Below are positions 8,437 to 64,000 of a DNA stretch of 64,000 nt, piece by piece. The position numbers were made by a program, and so were the translations under genes. How positions within the stretch are numbered: the stretch's first letter is position 1; the number at the start of each line of letters is the position of its first letter. Under the pieces are notes generated by a model. It was not told the origin of the DNA. It did not search any database and saw only the letters and a list, made by a program, of their open reading frames with translations. Source of the stretch: Bacteroidales bacterium. GTDB taxonomy: Bacteria > Bacteroidota > Bacteroidia > Bacteroidales > P3. The stretch covers positions 1 through 64,000 of the forward strand of contig JAEEHQ010000003.1 of assembly GCA_016280915.1 (NCBI GenBank), given 5' to 3'.

Positions 8437-8600
8437 CTATAGGGGATTTCTATTTATTGCTTGCAATAAAAGCCTCTGATTCTTATCAAATTCGAGATGA
8501 GAGAATGACAATTTCTCCTATTCTCAAATTCTTGATAAATATTACTATATAAGGCAACTTCTATTAGTCACCTCAAAGAGGTGAGACTACTAATTACCCG
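8437..8600. repeat. Dispersed intergenic hairpin repeat (two modules)
   Basis: CTATAGGGGATTTCTATTTATTGCTTGCAATAAAAGCCTCTGATTCTTATCAAATTC...AATTCTTGATAAAT matches 57621-57720; second module AAGGCAACTTCTATTAGTCACCTCAAAGAGGTGA resembles 60112-60157. Confidence 0.7.
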
Positions 8601-8654
8601 GTACAAGCCGAAGACGCTGTGCCGTGACACTCAGACAAAAGAACCTGCCATAAC

Positions 8655-8687
8655 AATAAAGGCGGCTCATGTGGCCGCCTTTATTAT
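8655..8687. terminator. Second, near-identical terminator (bidirectional, convergent genes)
   Basis: AAAGGCGG-ctcatgtgg-CCGCCTTT; same flank ATAACAATAAAGGCGG as the terminator at 8401. Confidence 0.75.
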
Positions 8688-8710
8688 TGTGTTAATACTA
8701 TATTAATAGA

Positions 8711-9136
8711 TTAATCATCAACGTGGGTTACATTGCCCTTGAGGTCGAATTGTATTTCCAATCCATTGGTGAGGGTGACCTCATAGCCGCCACGCATTTT
8801 CTCGCAGTCGATGATGAGCTGCTTAGGGTAGCGGTTGACAATATAGCGGGTGATATAGACGGGCACCAGCGTGACGGGTAGGCCTTCGGTGCATTTCATC
8901 TCTTTCCAAACACCTTTGGAATCAAACTGGATGATGGTACCGTCGGTAAGCAAGGCTTCGTATTCCTTGCCTTTGACATAGGCAAAGTCGATGGCGCAGG
9001 AGGGCCAATGCTTTTGAATCAGCTCATTGGCGGCCTTGGGCAGATTTTCAGGGTCGATGGTTCTCTTTTTGCTCTGGGCATTGGCGCTGCCGGCAAGGAG
9101 GACGATGGCAAATAATGCGAGGATGATTTTTTTCAT
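8711..9136 (-). CDS. PepSY-like domain periplasmic protein (DUF2874-like)
   Basis: 141 aa with signal peptide, duplicated 'YEALLTDGTIIQFDSKGVWKEM'/'YEVTLTNGLEIQFDLKGNVTHVD'. Confidence 0.8.
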   Translation of the reverse strand: MKKIILALFAIVLLAGSANAQSKKRTIDPENLPKAANELIQKHWPSCAIDFAYVKGKEYEALLTDGTIIQFDSKGVWKEMKCTEGLPVTLVPVYITRYIVNRYPKQLIIDCEKMRGGYEVTLTNGLEIQFDLKGNVTHVDD

Positions 9137-23064: not shown

Positions 23065-23130
23065 AAATACAAAAAAATTAGATATTTACAATCTTTTGGC
23101 TATATTTTTTGTGAAAAATAAGTTTCTAAG

Positions 23131-23236
23131 TTGGGATTTTGAGAGCGCGTGTCTCCGACACGCTGAGTTATATCTACTTATGTGCCCCACACAAAAAGAG
23201 GGTTCTCCCATTCAGTCGCGCACTCTTTTTATGCGG
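23131..23236. repeat. Dispersed composite repeat, single-unit copy
   Basis: Reverse complement CGCGACTGAATGGGAGAACCCTCTTTTTGTGTGGGGCACATAAGTAGATATAACTCAGCGTGTCGGAGACACGC aligns to 60524-60592. Confidence 0.75.
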
Positions 23237-23310
23237 GGATATTGAGAGTAAGGCCCCCCGAGCCTTTTTTCGTTTTACCTTATTTTTTGTCGTTACTTAA
23301 GGGCGCTTGA

Positions 23311-50749: not shown

Positions 50750-50883
50750 AATGTATTAATATATTTTTTATTTGGCTACTTTTCACTTATTCTATCGTGT
50801 CGGCATTTCATCCCTAAAAAGCAACGCATAGTTGCAAGGAACGATTCCCTGCTCGCTGCTTTTTCCGTCGGTTCGGCCATGCT

Positions 50884-50935
50884 TTCAAGTAAATACAACG
50901 CAGCGTGCCGTAGGGCACGCACTTTCAAAAAGTAC
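50884..50935. repeat. Dispersed hairpin module copy
   Basis: TTCAAGTAAATACAACGCAGCGTGCCGTAGGGCACGCACTTTCAAAAAG, matches the ends of 60563-60660 and of 23131-23190 (revcomp). Confidence 0.6.
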
Positions 50936-51103
50936 CTATCTTATTGGAATTAGGCGAAGTGAAGGAGAAGTTGCAACGAAGTTGCTTGAAAAATCTATTC
51001 TAAAAATGTCTTTTTATTAAAAAAAAATGTATATTTGCAATTTCCCTATCTTAACGGAAAGTAACGTAATAGGCTATTGCACAAAGGTTAACTGAAGAGA
51101 ATA

Positions 51104-56916: not shown

Positions 56917-56929
56917 GAAAGTTGAGAGA

Positions 56930-57600
56930 TTAAAGTTTATTGGTTATTGGTTATTGTTTATTGAAAGTTGAGAGTTGAAAGTTGATAGTTTAGAGTAGTT
57001 GAGAGTTGATAGTTGAAAGTTTATAGTTTATAGTTTATTGTTTATTGAAAGTTGAGAGATTAAAGTTGATAGTAAACTCAGCGTTTTCTGCGATTTCTGC
57101 GAGACATCAACCCCGCGCCAGCCATTAATGGTTAATTCATGATTAATTCGTGATAATTCGTGTTTTAAAAAAACAAGCTTTAGCTTGCATTTTCGTGTTT
57201 TTCGTTTCTTTCGATGTTCTATTATTGAAAGTTTATTGTTTATTGTTTATTGGTTATTGAAAGTTTAGAGTTGAGAGTTTAGAGTAGTTGATAGTTTTAA
57301 GTTGATAGAAAATCTGCGTTTTCTGCGAGAGTTTTCCCAAGCTTTAGCTTGCCAAATCCGTGTAATACTCGTGATACGTGGCCTGGTAAAGTTGATAGTT
57401 TAAAGTTTAAAGTTTAGAGTAGTTGATAGTTTAAAAGTTTAGAGTAGTTGAAAGTTGAAAACAGATTCGTGTAATACTCGTGAAGCGTGGCCCGGTAAAG
57501 TTGATAGTTTATAGTTTAGAGTAGTTGTTAGTTGAAAGTTTAGAGTAGTTGAAAGTTGAAAACAGATTCGTGTAATACTCGTGAAGCGTGACCCGATGTT
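56930..57600. repeat. Degenerate AGTTGATAGTTTAGAG-type low-complexity repeat tract with embedded 45-bp repeats
   Basis: Dozens of AGTTGA/AGTTTA words; 'AACAGATTCGTGTAATACTCGTGAAGCGTG' at ~57460 and ~57560, variant at ~57355. Confidence 0.85.
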
Positions 57601-57620: not shown

Positions 57621-57735
57621 GGCAACTTCTATTTATTGCTTGCAATAAAAGCCTTTAATTCTTATCAAATTCAAAATACGCAATTTACAAATTCTCCAAT
57701 TCTCTAATTCTTGATAAATAGAAATTCCCTATAGT
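57621..57735. repeat. Dispersed hairpin repeat, second copy
   Basis: GGCAACTTCTATTTATTGCTTGCAATAAAAGCCTTTAATTCTTATCAAATTC...AATTCTTGATAAATAGAAATTCCCTATAG. Confidence 0.75.
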
Positions 57736-58394: not shown

Positions 58395-58922
58395 TTACTT
58401 CTCGTACCGTCGCAAATAGTTGTAGATTCTGAAACGTTCTCCTTCGTCATAACCCAAGGCCTCGGTAATATTGCGGAGGAAGACGCTCTTGTCCATTTCG
58501 GCGGCTGTCAAAGCCCTTTCTAAATTACCCATCTGCATCATCAGTCTGAACACCCAGAGTGCGTTGCTTTGGCAGCTCAGCAATTCGTCCTCATTGATAG
58601 TGTCCAGCCGTGCCATCAATTCTTCGTGCAGCGGGTCGTCCGATTGTTGTGCTATTGGGGACTTACCTTCTATGCCCAGCATCATAGTGGACTCTTTGTG
58701 CTGAGTGGAGGAAGACTCGGGCTGCTGCTGTGGTGATTGTTCACCCAGATTTTGGTGCAGCCATCCCGCCATGTCGGGCCGTTCCGCCACCATTTTGCGC
58801 AGCAATTGTTTCCACATCCCTGTGGTCATGGTGGTTTTCATAATCATCTCCAGCACCTGTTCCCTCATTTCATCATTACCTGATTGCTCAGTGTTGTTAT
58901 TCAAAGCATAATTTTCATTCAT
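58395..58922 (-). CDS. Hypothetical protein
   Basis: 175 aa, plausible codon usage, downstream of coaE on the opposite strand. Confidence 0.6.
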   Translation of the reverse strand: MNENYALNNNTEQSGNDEMREQVLEMIMKTTMTTGMWKQLLRKMVAERPDMAGWLHQNLGEQSPQQQPESSSTQHKESTMMLGIEGKSPIAQQSDDPLHEELMARLDTINEDELLSCQSNALWVFRLMMQMGNLERALTAAEMDKSVFLRNITEALGYDEGERFRIYNYLRRYEK

Positions 58923-58974
58923 ACATACAATTACGCAAAAATCAATAATTTATTACATCAACCTTAAAAAAAAT

Positions 58975-59190
58975 GTGAAGCAACCATCCGGTGGATGTGA
59001 AGCAACCATCCAGTGGATGGTTGCGATAGTGCAACGGAGAACACAACCCCCGCGGTTGTGATGGCGCTTATGGCACCATAACAACCGCGGGGGGTTGTGA
59101 TGGCGCCACAAGCGCCATTCGGCCCGATTCGGCCATGGCGCAAAGCGAGCGTCCGAGAATTTTATTCTCGAGACCGAGCCGAAGCCATGT
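58975..59190. repeat. Array of short direct repeats and hairpins
   Basis: GTGAAGCAACCATCC(G/A)GTGGAT x2; TTGTGATGGCGC...CCAT x2; GCAACCATCCAgTGGATGGTTGC. Confidence 0.7.
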
Positions 59191-59338: not shown

Positions 59339-59587
59339 TTAAGCCTCTTCCGCTTCTTCTTCCTGAGATTCCCTCTTCTCAACTAATATACAGTTCTTCA
59401 AATCGAAATACTTCTTTAACTCAGGTGAAGGCGAGAACGAAACTTTCAAGGATTTCACAGAATACCTTCCCGCTTCTCTTTTGGTTTCAACACCGCATGA
59501 GCGGCATCCCGTCGCAGCGGATGTTCCAGTTTGTGGTTCGTTGCGGCAGATTTGTAATCTGACGCAAAATATTATAAGGATTTTCAA
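59339..59587 (-). pseudogene. Probable gene fragment whose 5' end is replaced by repeat sequence
   Basis: C-terminal part 'GRYSVKSLKVSFSPSPELKKYFDLKNCILVEKRESQEEEAEEA' looks coding; N-terminal part (59508-59587) is the dispersed repeat. Confidence 0.35.
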
Positions 59588-59801
59588 TCCGAATACAATA
59601 ATCCTTATTTAATTACCCGCAGGGAAATCCCTCATAATTAGTCAAATCAACCATCTGCTTTCACCGCACAAAAATTTACTCCTAATTTACTCGTTAATTT
59701 ACTCCGTATTTACTCAATTCGCCTTAAGGCGCAAAACATCATGCTGCTAAAGCAGAAGAAAGTAAATTACCATAAATGCGGAGTAAATTTCAAGTAAATT
59801 A
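59541..59801 (+). repeat. 260-bp direct repeat, copy 1 (upstream flank shared with 63925-64000 begins at 59508)
   Basis: TTGCGGCAGATTTGTAATCTGACGCAA...TTTACTC iterons...GAGTAAATTTCAAGTAAATTA. Confidence 0.92.
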
Positions 59802-59852
59802 AAAATGTTTCAATTTTATTCAATATCCATGCACGGTGTGCCGCAATCTCAG

Positions 59853-60112
59853 TTGCGGCAGATTTGTAATCTGACGCAAAATATTATAAGGATTTTCAAT
59901 CCGAATACAATAATCCTTATTTAATTACCCGCAGGAAATCACTCAAAATCATTCAAATCAACCATCTGCTTTCACCGCACAAAAATTTACTCCTAATTTA
60001 CTCGTTAATTTACTCCGTATTTACTCAATTCGCCTTTAGGCGCAAAACATCATGCTGCTAAAGCAGAAGAAAGTAAATTACCATAAATGCGGAGTAAATT
60101 TCAAGTAAATTA
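59853..60112 (+). repeat. 260-bp direct repeat, copy 2
   Basis: Near-identical to 59541-59801. Confidence 0.92.
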
Positions 60113-60662
60113 AGGTGACTTCTATTAATTGCCACGAAGAGGCAAACTCTCAATACCGTTGCGGAAGTCGACGTCGCGACCGGATGGGAGCAACGTTTTT
60201 TTTCGACGTCGCGACCGGATGGGAGCAACGTTTTTCCCGAGCGCAGAGCCGAACTTGTTCGAGCTATGCCGAGATGTAGCAAACGTCTCGAAGAAACGTT
60301 GCGGAAGTCGACGTCGCGACCGGATGGGAGCAACGTTTTTTCCGAGCGCAGAGCCGAACTTGTTCGAGCTATGCCGAGATGTAGCAAACGTCTCGAAGAA
60401 ACGTTGCGGAAGTCGACGTCGCGACCGAATGGGAGCAACGTTTTTTTTCGACGTCGCGACCGAATGGGAGCAACGTTTTTTTTCGACGTCGCGACCGGAT
60501 GGGAGCAACGTTTTTTTCGACGTCGCGACCGAATGGGAGCAACCTCTTTTTATGTGGTGTATTTCAAGTAGATATAGCTCAGCGTGCCGGAGTGAAGAAA
60601 GTCCTGTGGACTTTCGATAGCTGAGCATCGCGAAAACGGAGAAATCAACGCTCTCAAAATCT
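60112..60662 (+). repeat. Composite repeat island: left hairpin, seven ~35-bp units, right hairpin module
   Basis: Units TCGACGTCGCGACCG(G/A)ATGGGAGCAACGTTTTTTT start at 60168, 60203, 60308, 60413, 60448, 60483, 60517; right module 60563-60660. Confidence 0.9.
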
Positions 60663-60787
60663 AATTTATAGAACCCATCATAATATTAGAGCGATGAATA
60701 AAAAGGCACCACTTATATCCTTTTAATCCTTAATGACAGACGACAGCTGTCTTGCGCGTCAGTCGTCAAGGAGTGCAGGAGCGAGGC

Positions 60788-62245
60788 TCACGGGCGGACG
60801 ACCAGTTTCTTGGTGGCGATGCCCGAGGCGGTCTCCACCATAATCAGGTAGGTGCCTTGAGGCCATCCTTTCACCGAGAAGGTGTGGGTGAGGCCGTGGG
60901 CATCGGCTTTATACACGGCACGGCCGTCCATGGCGTAGGCCTCCACGCCCAAGAGGCGGTAGGCCGACGACACCGATACATCGGCATTGGCGGGGTTGGG
61001 GGACAGCCGCACCATGCCGTCGGTAACGGCGTTGCCGTTGGGCCGCTCGGTCCAAAGCTGCTGTTCCGCACCACACCATTCGACGCTGTCGCTCCAATCG
61101 CTGTAGTACTCGTAGCCGTACTCGTTGCACACGGTGCGCACCCAAGCCACGAGGGTGTCGCCGCGGTGCAGCGAGTCGATGTGTCGCCACGATGGGCGGC
61201 TGCAGTCAACCAGGGTGCCATCTTCGGGTCGGATGCCCTTGGGGCCGTAGGCAAGCTGCCACTGGCTGTGGGCGTCGTCGAAGCGGTCCCACCGCAGCAC
61301 GGTGGTGTCGTCGTAGACCCCTGTCACATTGAGCCACCGCACCCATGGACAGTCGGGCAGCTCATAGTCCCAGAGGGTGTCGGTATGTCCTATGATTGGC
61401 ACAATCAGGCAGAAATCCACTGCTATGCGGTCCACCCATTGGTTCAGGATGTAGCCTTCGGGTATGCTATCGTTCCAAGCAGCAATGCTGAGAGAATACA
61501 AGAAGGGGTTAGATATTGTAAAACGTTGTTTCAGTTTTATCCTAGGCCAGCAGGTGGAGTCGCCGAATTGGCCCATGTTGCTCACACGAATATGTCCCCA
61601 CCTGTGAGGCACAGGACAATGTCCTCCTTCTCCGTCATGCGTCCAGATCATTAAGTTTGCAAAACCTCTTTGCGTTGCACCCACGTAGAATGAGTCGGTC
61701 ACATGTATGGGTTTGTCGAAGAAATGTGCGCTGTTTCGTTGCGTATTGTAGCCAAAGAGATCAGGCACGACGCAACCAAACCCATGTTGCATCCACTTAG
61801 TCGGGAATCGTGTGTTGAAGTAGTTCACATTACTGCCGGGGGTGTACGGCAACGTGGCTTTGAGCATAAAGGTGTCGGGCAGGGCATCATACAAGAACAA
61901 GTCTTCCTGTACGTAGTATTCCAAGTTATTGGTATCGTAGTCGGGATTCCAAACTGCTATGCCATAGACATCTGCTCCTCCCTCGATATAATTGTATTGC
62001 AACTGGTCTCCCAATATAGCCGTAGCCTGCCCCCCTCTTATAAGAGGCACTTGCGGACTGCCGGGATAGCAACTGAAATAGCTGCTTCCCAAGGAGGCTT
62101 TGTGGAAAGGGTCCGATTCCAGCCAATCTTCGTAGTCGAACTGGAAATAAGGAGTCAGCACCGTGTCTATATGCACAATATGTTGCGCTTGTCCCCCTAA
62201 GCTCAGGCTCAGGGCCATAATGGCTATAATGATATATTTTTTCAT
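60788..62245 (-). CDS. Secreted protein with T9SS type A sorting domain
   Basis: Signal peptide MKKYIIIAIMALSLSLGGQAQ; C-terminal 'RLSPNPANADVSVSS...GWPQGTYLIMVETASGIATKKLVVRP'. Confidence 0.82.
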   Translation of the reverse strand: MKKYIIIAIMALSLSLGGQAQHIVHIDTVLTPYFQFDYEDWLESDPFHKASLGSSYFSCYPGSPQVPLIRGGQATAILGDQLQYNYIEGGADVYGIAVWNPDYDTNNLEYYVQEDLFLYDALPDTFMLKATLPYTPGSNVNYFNTRFPTKWMQHGFGCVVPDLFGYNTQRNSAHFFDKPIHVTDSFYVGATQRGFANLMIWTHDGEGGHCPVPHRWGHIRVSNMGQFGDSTCWPRIKLKQRFTISNPFLYSLSIAAWNDSIPEGYILNQWVDRIAVDFCLIVPIIGHTDTLWDYELPDCPWVRWLNVTGVYDDTTVLRWDRFDDAHSQWQLAYGPKGIRPEDGTLVDCSRPSWRHIDSLHRGDTLVAWVRTVCNEYGYEYYSDWSDSVEWCGAEQQLWTERPNGNAVTDGMVRLSPNPANADVSVSSAYRLLGVEAYAMDGRAVYKADAHGLTHTFSVKGWPQGTYLIMVETASGIATKKLVVRP

Positions 62246-62259
62246 GGTATGTCTTTTTT

Positions 62260-63618
62260 TTATTGGCAAATAATGTAAGTAGCTTTTGGGGTTGCCGTTT
62301 CTGGTGTATAATAATAATAGAATCCAGGAGGGTAAGTACAGTGGTGTCGTTTCAGTTTGGTGTCTAAGGTGGGCGTTGTGTTGGAGAAGCCGACGGCTTG
62401 TTCAATTTCGCAGTTGCCGGGCTGGTTAGGTACTCCTTTCCAAACATTAAGGTTGGGGTTTGCATCTGTGCCCGATGCGATGAATCCCATTGGCGTACAA
62501 TTGTCTAGCGCATGCAGCACTTTGGGATAGGGGCAATGTCTGACTGAGTATGGCCCTACCAATGTTGCGGGTGCGCCGATTTGGAAAACATAGCTTTGAG
62601 CAGCCATAAATGGGTCGTCGATATAGTTGAGGATGAGCAGATGGTCGGTGTAGCTGTCGTACCTCATGTCGTTCATGTGCCAGGTGTTCGTTGCGGTTTC
62701 AGGGGATTTGATGCTGGCCACAATCACCGGGGTGCTGCCCGACACGTCTATCGTCTTTATGGCCAGGCCTTTGCTGATGGTATCGTAATAGTGATAGGCG
62801 AGCGACACCAAATTGCCAGCCAATGGAGCCACCATGACCTTTCCCAACGTCTGGTGGTCGTAGCATCCGTACCGATTCGAATAGATGATGGGGCTTAGAT
62901 TTGTGTAGTCTCTCACCTTTTTGAAGACTTGAAACTTCACACGGTTAGAGTCGTTGGTGCGTGCGGCAATCACGATTTTGTTTTCGGTGGCACAGATGTC
63001 GGTATATTCTTCTATACCATCCTTATTCAAGTGATAATGGCAAATATCCCAAGATGTGCCGTTCACGAAGGCGGCATCGCCAAAGCCCACCCGGTAAGGG
63101 TAAGGGGCGGCTGGGTCGATAGGGTTGGTTGTGTTGTAGGCAATATAGGCTATGCGCGTGCCTGCGCCGTACCTGTAGAGTGCCAGCCGCGTCACGTCTT
63201 CAATCTGTGTGATGCCCAACACGATGTGCGTAGAATCAGGATACCAAACTAGGCTGTGGTAGTAAAAGTTTCCTGCCAGCAGGTCGTTGATGGCAAAGCA
63301 GGCCAGCAGGCCGCGTTTGATGCCTGTGTTGACAGAGCCGCCGGCAAAGACCGAGTCGTTGGCTATACGGAAGTCGTTGATGGTTACATAGGATGGAACT
63401 GGTGCGCTGATGATGTTGCCAGTGGCATGGTTGTGGTAGGCGACGGTGCGTGTGCCGGAACTATGAGCCGTGTAGACGATGTATTCGCTTCCCCTCCAAT
63501 GTCGCACAATGGTGGTGTCGCAGACTGTGTTAGGCGTTTTGCAGACTACGCTCTGCGCCAACGCAGTCGAGGTCCCGATTAGGCATAGTAAACTGAATAG
63601 TATTGCGTTTTTTTTCAT
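62260..63618 (-). CDS. Hypothetical secreted protein
   Basis: 452 aa, signal peptide MKKNAILFSLLCLIGTSTALAQ; paired with the T9SS gene downstream. Confidence 0.75.
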   Translation of the reverse strand: MKKNAILFSLLCLIGTSTALAQSVVCKTPNTVCDTTIVRHWRGSEYIVYTAHSSGTRTVAYHNHATGNIISAPVPSYVTINDFRIANDSVFAGGSVNTGIKRGLLACFAINDLLAGNFYYHSLVWYPDSTHIVLGITQIEDVTRLALYRYGAGTRIAYIAYNTTNPIDPAAPYPYRVGFGDAAFVNGTSWDICHYHLNKDGIEEYTDICATENKIVIAARTNDSNRVKFQVFKKVRDYTNLSPIIYSNRYGCYDHQTLGKVMVAPLAGNLVSLAYHYYDTISKGLAIKTIDVSGSTPVIVASIKSPETATNTWHMNDMRYDSYTDHLLILNYIDDPFMAAQSYVFQIGAPATLVGPYSVRHCPYPKVLHALDNCTPMGFIASGTDANPNLNVWKGVPNQPGNCEIEQAVGFSNTTPTLDTKLKRHHCTYPPGFYYYYTPETATPKATYIICQ

Positions 63619-63924: not shown

Positions 63925-64000
63925 CCCGTCGCAGCGGATGTTCCAGTTTGTGGTTCGTTGCGTCAGATTTGTAATCTGACGCAACCTATTATAAGGATTT
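63925..64000 (+). repeat. Third (partial) copy of the 260-bp repeat family, continuing past window edge
   Basis: CCCGTCGCAGCGGATGTTCCAGTTTGTGGTTCGTTGCGTCAGATTTGTAATCTGACGCAAcctATTATAAGGATTT, as at 59508-59583. Confidence 0.88.

Follow-up and report, generated by a model that had tools for sequence, protein, structure and literature searches.

A repeat island in a Bacteroidales genome is very probably an IS5-mobilised MITE enlarged by a nested, independently spreading hairpin

The 566-bp repeat island at positions 60114–60679 of the window (the whole stretch of DNA analysed here, 64,000 nucleotides long) is very probably a MITE mobilised by an IS5-family transposase, within which a selfish tip hairpin that also spreads independently has become nested and multiplied in tandem. 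An earlier note on this DNA described the island as a modular dispersed element with a variable number of units, a description borne out by matches across the same genome and its relatives. That reading overlooked that the island is one copy of a MITE, and that the core of its 35-bp unit is a hairpin that is mobile in its own right and inserts into coding genes.

The minimal form of the element is ~133 bp long. It has 17-bp imperfect terminal repeats (GGKGACTTCTATTAATT) and three covarying hairpins, arranged in the order GG-end, TTGCC..GGCAA hairpin, CTCTCAA, CCCCGCAC..GTGTGGGG hairpin, AT-rich spacer, GCGTGCC..GGCACGC hairpin, CTCTCAA and CC-end. The island differs from this form by an array and 71-bp modules located within hairpin 2, and by a GAAAGTCC palindrome located within hairpin 3. 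Its features are as follows:

60114–60679 (+): whole element, an enlarged MITE copy of 566 bp (alignment with minimal copies L087, L088 and L090 and with relatives; direct sequence)
60114–60130 (+): left terminal inverted repeat GGTGACTTCTATTAATT (72 matches in the same genome with at most two mismatches, against 7 for a reversed control)
60129–60145 (+): core hairpin 1, TTGCCACGAAGAGGCAA (covarying stem; 94.8% of cells paired in 94 distinct copies)
60157–60558 (+): interior of hairpin 2, which holds the array and inserts (minimal compared with array-bearing copies)
60168–60551 (+): minisatellite of seven 35-bp units (direct sequence)
60174, 60209, 60314, 60419, 60454, 60489 and 60523 (+): starts of the 21-base tips in the minisatellite
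60237–60307 (+): palindromic insert module, 71 bp, copy 1 (13 matches in the same genome)
60342–60412 (+): palindromic insert module, 71 bp, copy 2, identical to copy 1
60577–60626 (+): right nested hairpin, GCTCAGC/GCTGAGC around GAAAGTCC-TGT-GGACTTTC, inserted at the tip of hairpin 3
60663–60679 (−): right terminal inverted repeat AATTTATAGAACCCATC, the type of end found in the IS5-family element L308 (AATTAATAGAACCCACC)

The seven array units start at 60168, 60203, 60308, 60413, 60448, 60483 and 60517 by direct sequence, in exact agreement with the earlier note, and their start-to-start spacings are 35, 105, 105, 35, 35 and 34 bp; the unit number is that assembled in a 147-contig draft. Point differences among the units comprise a G/A variant and a last unit that diverges at its end (AACCTCTTTTT). 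The 70-bp insert reported as duplicated is an identical 70/71-bp module present twice (60237–60307 and 60342–60412). The nested hairpin at the right end is also as described, with GCTCAGC at 60577–60583, GCTGAGC at 60620–60626 and GAAAGTCC-TGT-GGACTTTC at 60597–60615; minimal copies have GCGTGCCGGAGGCACGC in its place, and their hairpin 2 consists only of CCCCGCAC..GTGTGGGG. At the left end the reported hairpin has to be reassigned. The GGTGACTTCTATTA segment is mainly a terminal inverted repeat whose pairing partner, AATTTATAGAACC, lies at the opposite end of the island, and a hairpin does lie behind the segment, formed by TTGCC..GGCAA and followed by CTCTCAA at 60147–60153.

The genome spans 3.02 Mb in 147 contigs. 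It contains 30 matches related to the array, 13 to the insert and 28 to the right module. Within the genus, where most genomes are draft assemblies, the MITE occurs in 66 of 92 genomes with a patchy distribution, reaching at least 36 copies in the richest. The array is neither unique to this locus nor absent from relatives. Recurrences that had been noticed at 23.1, 8.5 and 50.9 kb are matched by the model of the element, and the piece at 57.6 kb belongs to a different 109-bp element:

8553–8717 (+): copy of a sister element of the CACCTCAAAGAGGTG type (R1 model, E 3e-4)
23130–23271 (−): second core copy, in which the single tip is degenerate and the outer ends differ (R1 model, E 1.3e-13)
50851–50940 (+): partial core copy, part of hairpin 3 (R1 model, E 0.003)
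57621–57729 (+): a different MITE of 109 bp, whose ends are of the same type and whose target duplication is TATA

The three-hairpin core with quite different outer ends, of the TAAAAAATAACGTAAAACAAT type, is present at 23130–23271 and also in L192 and L193, as if it had been captured by another MITE type. The 109-bp MITE lies just before the CoaE gene and has further copies at L196, L197, L208 and L209. Between a YbbR-like gene and coaE, positions 56920–57600 hold a long degenerate tandem-repeat run (TTGAAAGTTGAGAG/TAGTTTAGAG types, periods 7–101).

Evidence for transposition comes from the element boundaries. Exact 4-bp direct repeats are present at both ends of 40 of 93 copies, whereas 1000 shuffles gave 4.3 on average and never more than 12, and 16 further copies show a 4-bp duplication when both boundaries are shifted by one base. 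No comparable excess is seen for lengths of 3 or 5 at the same boundaries of these 93 copies. Copies nested in sister elements of known uninterrupted form are found at L149 and L326 (TTAA), L165 (ATAA) and L088 (ATAT). The flanks of the window copy are unlike (TTAA and ATAA); its own duplication was therefore lost or never made. The T9SS gene next to the island has one close orthologue only, at 70% identity; at the orthologous locus, in G028, the island is absent and the flanks are not cleanly alignable, so that this locus gives no clean empty site for the window copy.

After a search of 41 genomes for DDE transposase families, scanning for MITE-type ends identified two IS5-family IS elements in relatives. 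One of these (L308) is 1334 bp long, has a TAGA duplication and carries the right end AATTAATAGAACCCACC, which matches the MITE ends; the other (L303) is 1325 bp long, has an ATCA duplication and also has matching ends. Their transposases score 265 and 248 bits, respectively, against NCBIfam IS5_4, for which the cut-off is 140. Since IS5 elements of relatives share the ends and the 4-bp duplications, the MITE is very likely mobilised by an IS5 transposase acting in trans. No IS5-family transposase was found in the assembly of the window's own genome, a draft in 147 contigs, and its sole DDE_Tnp_1 match is of the IS4 type. Compared with IS5-family IS elements (NCBIfam NF033581), the MITE has matching terminal repeats and a target duplication of equal length, but it is short, contains no transposase and is present in many copies, as is expected of an IS5 MITE.

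The hairpins of the MITE show compensating changes. Among 94 distinct copies, 24 of 31 pairs have changed on both sides, which none of 500 shuffles reaches, and all covariation measures exceed 500 of 500 shuffles and every slid version. The alignment was fitted to the model and so leans towards it; hairpins 1 and 3 are nearly ungapped. RNAalifold recovered only part of the structure from a first alignment because hairpin 2 was apparently misaligned, and the named structure with the model-fitted alignment was used instead.

Strong covariation in three hairpins is also what a structured regulatory or non-coding RNA family would show, in which the hairpins act in RNA and dispersal is secondary. 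Some copies stop a few bases 5' of a start codon (L087 and L080), and under RNA parameters, too, the fold of the tip contains a symmetric GA/GA internal loop. We nevertheless consider this explanation, one of the classes suggested in the earlier note, to be improbable. Rfam gives no family at the gathering level and nothing relevant at a relaxed level, and a promoter and terminator scan found no promoter-like site and a single terminator-like site, which lies outside the element. The stems contain G-U and A-C exchanges in roughly equal numbers (11:11 in hairpin 1, 30:20 in hairpin 3 and 25:33 in the terminal inverted repeats), so the signature of a transcribed strand is missing, in a test of limited power to which old copies add noise. 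Transposition is consistent with the target duplications and with the patchy copy number. Loops are mostly of the form C-GNA-G (61 of 87 copies for hairpin 1 and 64 of 91 for hairpin 3), a motif that stabilises DNA hairpins, and a DNA fold of the island exceeds those of its shuffles in stability (z −2.72). Together, the stem exchanges, loops and DNA fold favour palindromes that act at the DNA level, without proving it.

The core of the array is a separate dispersed motif of 21 bases, TCGCGACCGRATGGGAGCAAC, located at the tips of palindromes. An exact search of GTDB with a 22-base core returned 31 stretches from uncultured Bacteroidales, in the main from ruminant gut, and most lie outside the MITE; judging from the named records with the same core, the genus is probably a ruminant-gut Bacteroidales lineage. 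A search for the 21-base core that tolerated one mismatch found 48 copies in the window's own genome; within the genus 24 of 99 genomes contain it, and in the rest of the class none of 289 does. The reversed control pattern is absent from all genomes searched, including the window's own, and viral contigs contain no exact tip match.

The fold of the tip consists of a C.A mismatch, GC, tandem G.A, CC, a GRAN loop, GG, GA and GC. The palindrome arms that flank it vary from site to site and yet are complementary: across 43 arm-distinct contexts, 5.02 of 10 positions pair, against 3.56 after shuffling (maximum 4.33 in 2000 shuffles). One genome (G011) has several tip copies with shared arms, which suggests that tip and arms may also move together. 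Units of tip arrays are spaced mainly 30–39 bp apart across genomes. A nine-unit array with spacings of 30–71 bp (L057, C41:17002–17360) lies between inverted ends 1723 bp apart.

In relatives, the tip is found in frame inside unrelated genes, as identified from peptide and family:

Leucyl-tRNA synthetase: L377
Seryl-tRNA synthetase: L268 and L371
EF-G2-like factor: L283 and L368
Methylmalonyl-CoA mutase small subunit: L271 and L366
PurL-type synthase (purL): L286
BlaI/CopY-type repressor, in several species: L267, L278, L287 and L293
T9SS sorting domains: L280 and L373

The 21-base core is open in all six reading frames, and one T9SS sorting domain contains two tip units 39 bp, or 13 codons, apart. 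Insert-free homologues were compared for serS and leuS, and orthologues were compared at the DNA level for serS. In serS, a stretch of 6 nt in relatives corresponds to 36 nt in G071, a net in-frame gain of 30 nt. Among 27 readable sequences this insert is present in one and absent from 26, and the G113 protein, which is 98% identical to that of G071, is insert-free. The leucyl-tRNA synthetase of G023 has 11 extra residues relative to the product of the window's own leuS. In-frame insertion into unrelated protein genes thus goes together with absence from orthologues, the criterion applied to Rickettsia palindromic elements (RPEs), for both serS and leuS. Since the tip spreads independently, including into protein genes, it behaves as RPE-like selfish DNA. 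A coding role for the array in the island was considered and rejected: its 35-bp units shift the frame, and long ORFs across the island are therefore mechanical.

Small palindromes that form tandem clusters and lie in part within genes could also be REP/BIME-type repeats moved by a RAYT (HUH tyrosine transposase), the class that the earlier note had offered first. The GTAG/CGTC REPs are likewise high-copy, clustered palindromes of 20–40 bp, some of them within genes, and CGTC REPs occur also in Bacteroidetes and in RPE-4/RPE-6 (PMC3733652). REPs, however, lack the terminal repeats and 4-bp target duplications of the MITE. The tip has no conserved GTAG, only 10 of its 43 arm-distinct contexts have a preceding CGTC (counted by eye), and a constant tip with variable arms takes the place of the constant foot of these REPs (PMC3733652). 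With no conserved GTAG or CGTC tag at one foot, RAYT/REP membership was rejected, and we regard this origin as very unlikely. That the array is a product of assembly collapse or expansion is scarcely credible: the genome is a 147-contig draft and several copies have repeats near contig ends (C12 and C74), but many independent genomes, and named MAGs from different ruminants, carry the same modules and arrays, and the point differences among units (G/A and the last unit) speak against simple stutter.

The IS5-mobilised MITE with a nested hairpin would arise as follows. An IS5-family transposase supplied in trans would move the ends of the non-autonomous element, creating a 4-bp AT-rich target duplication. 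The interior of the MITE is a row of palindromes whose tips take in further palindromic modules. In the island copy, hairpin 2 took up the 21-base tip module and the 71-bp palindrome, and another palindrome entered hairpin 3. Tandem multiplication of the two modules in hairpin 2 followed, probably through replication slippage at the hairpin or through unequal recombination there. The tip module spreads apart from the MITE as well, also in frame into protein genes and presumably without a host function.

The best-known case of selfish palindromes in frame within essential genes is Rickettsia, which lives as a parasite inside cells and whose genome is decaying. Here the tip occurs in a gut genus with many sequenced species, and a relative protein, 98% identical but insert-free, makes both the movement of such elements and the tolerance of proteins towards them testable by comparison. 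It is also a selfish hairpin that rides and multiplies within a second selfish element. It is unusual for a constant tip to have complementary arms that differ by site, and this offers a clue to mechanism. In the serS insert, the right arm (ATTTGG) is complementary to CCAAAT, the first bases of which (CCAA) look pre-existing. This case raises the hypothesis that arms might be made by fold-back copying of the target flank. A more speculative and rather unlikely extension is that mobile hairpins of a new class, with the tip as their constant part, insert at hairpin tips and in coding genes, each insertion building its own palindrome from the copied flank.

By analogy, the tip appears to work like an RPE nested in a BrickBuilt-like MITE. 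The BrickBuilt MITE of Porphyromonas gingivalis resembles the island element in its Bacteroidales host, internal tandem minisatellite, IS5-like terminal repeats, intergenic location and variable unit number (PMC4596501). Its unit is 23 nt long, compared with 30–39 nt in arrays of the island type, and the sequences are unrelated; its terminal repeats, published as GAGACCTTCGCA, differ from the MITE ends described here; and its full ends never occur without the repeat, whereas many copies of the present MITE are repeat-free (PMC4596501). Unlike BrickBuilt, this MITE has a consistent 4-bp duplication and a repeat core that is an independent mobile hairpin entering coding genes. BrickBuilt membership was rejected on unit length and terminal repeats. 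RPEs are selfish palindromes found in frame in unrelated genes, including essential ones, and in intergenic regions (Ogata 2000, 2002, as cited in PMC10969869). As far as the account in PMC10969869 goes, the likeness to the tip is one of description, both being palindromic selfish DNA in frame in protein genes. According to the same account, RPEs are ~150 bp long with family-wide sequence conservation, whereas the tip has ~21 constant bases and site-variable arms, belongs to gut Bacteroidales and not Rickettsia, forms tandem arrays and is nested in a MITE. A literature search of partial coverage found no prior description of this MITE or tip.

The island lies in a repeat-filled intergenic stretch between an uncharacterised ORF (58398–58922, −) and a T9SS-sorted protein (60791–62269, −). 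A 311-bp unit, repeated 1.8 times in tandem at 97% likeness, occupies 59540–60113, and its final base immediately precedes the MITE; pieces of this unit (GCGGCAGATTTGTAATCTG) recur at 63957–64000 and on other contigs (L061, L063, L065 and L079). A further small palindromic repeat, GTGAAGCAACCATCCAGTGG(ATGG), is present at 58973–59019, in L057 and L062, and 5' of tip arrays in contigs C41 and C54. A paralogue of the T9SS-sorted protein next to the island (G000:C37:82452–84159) is likewise followed, ~65 bp downstream, by a right-module copy, which has the opposite relative orientation.
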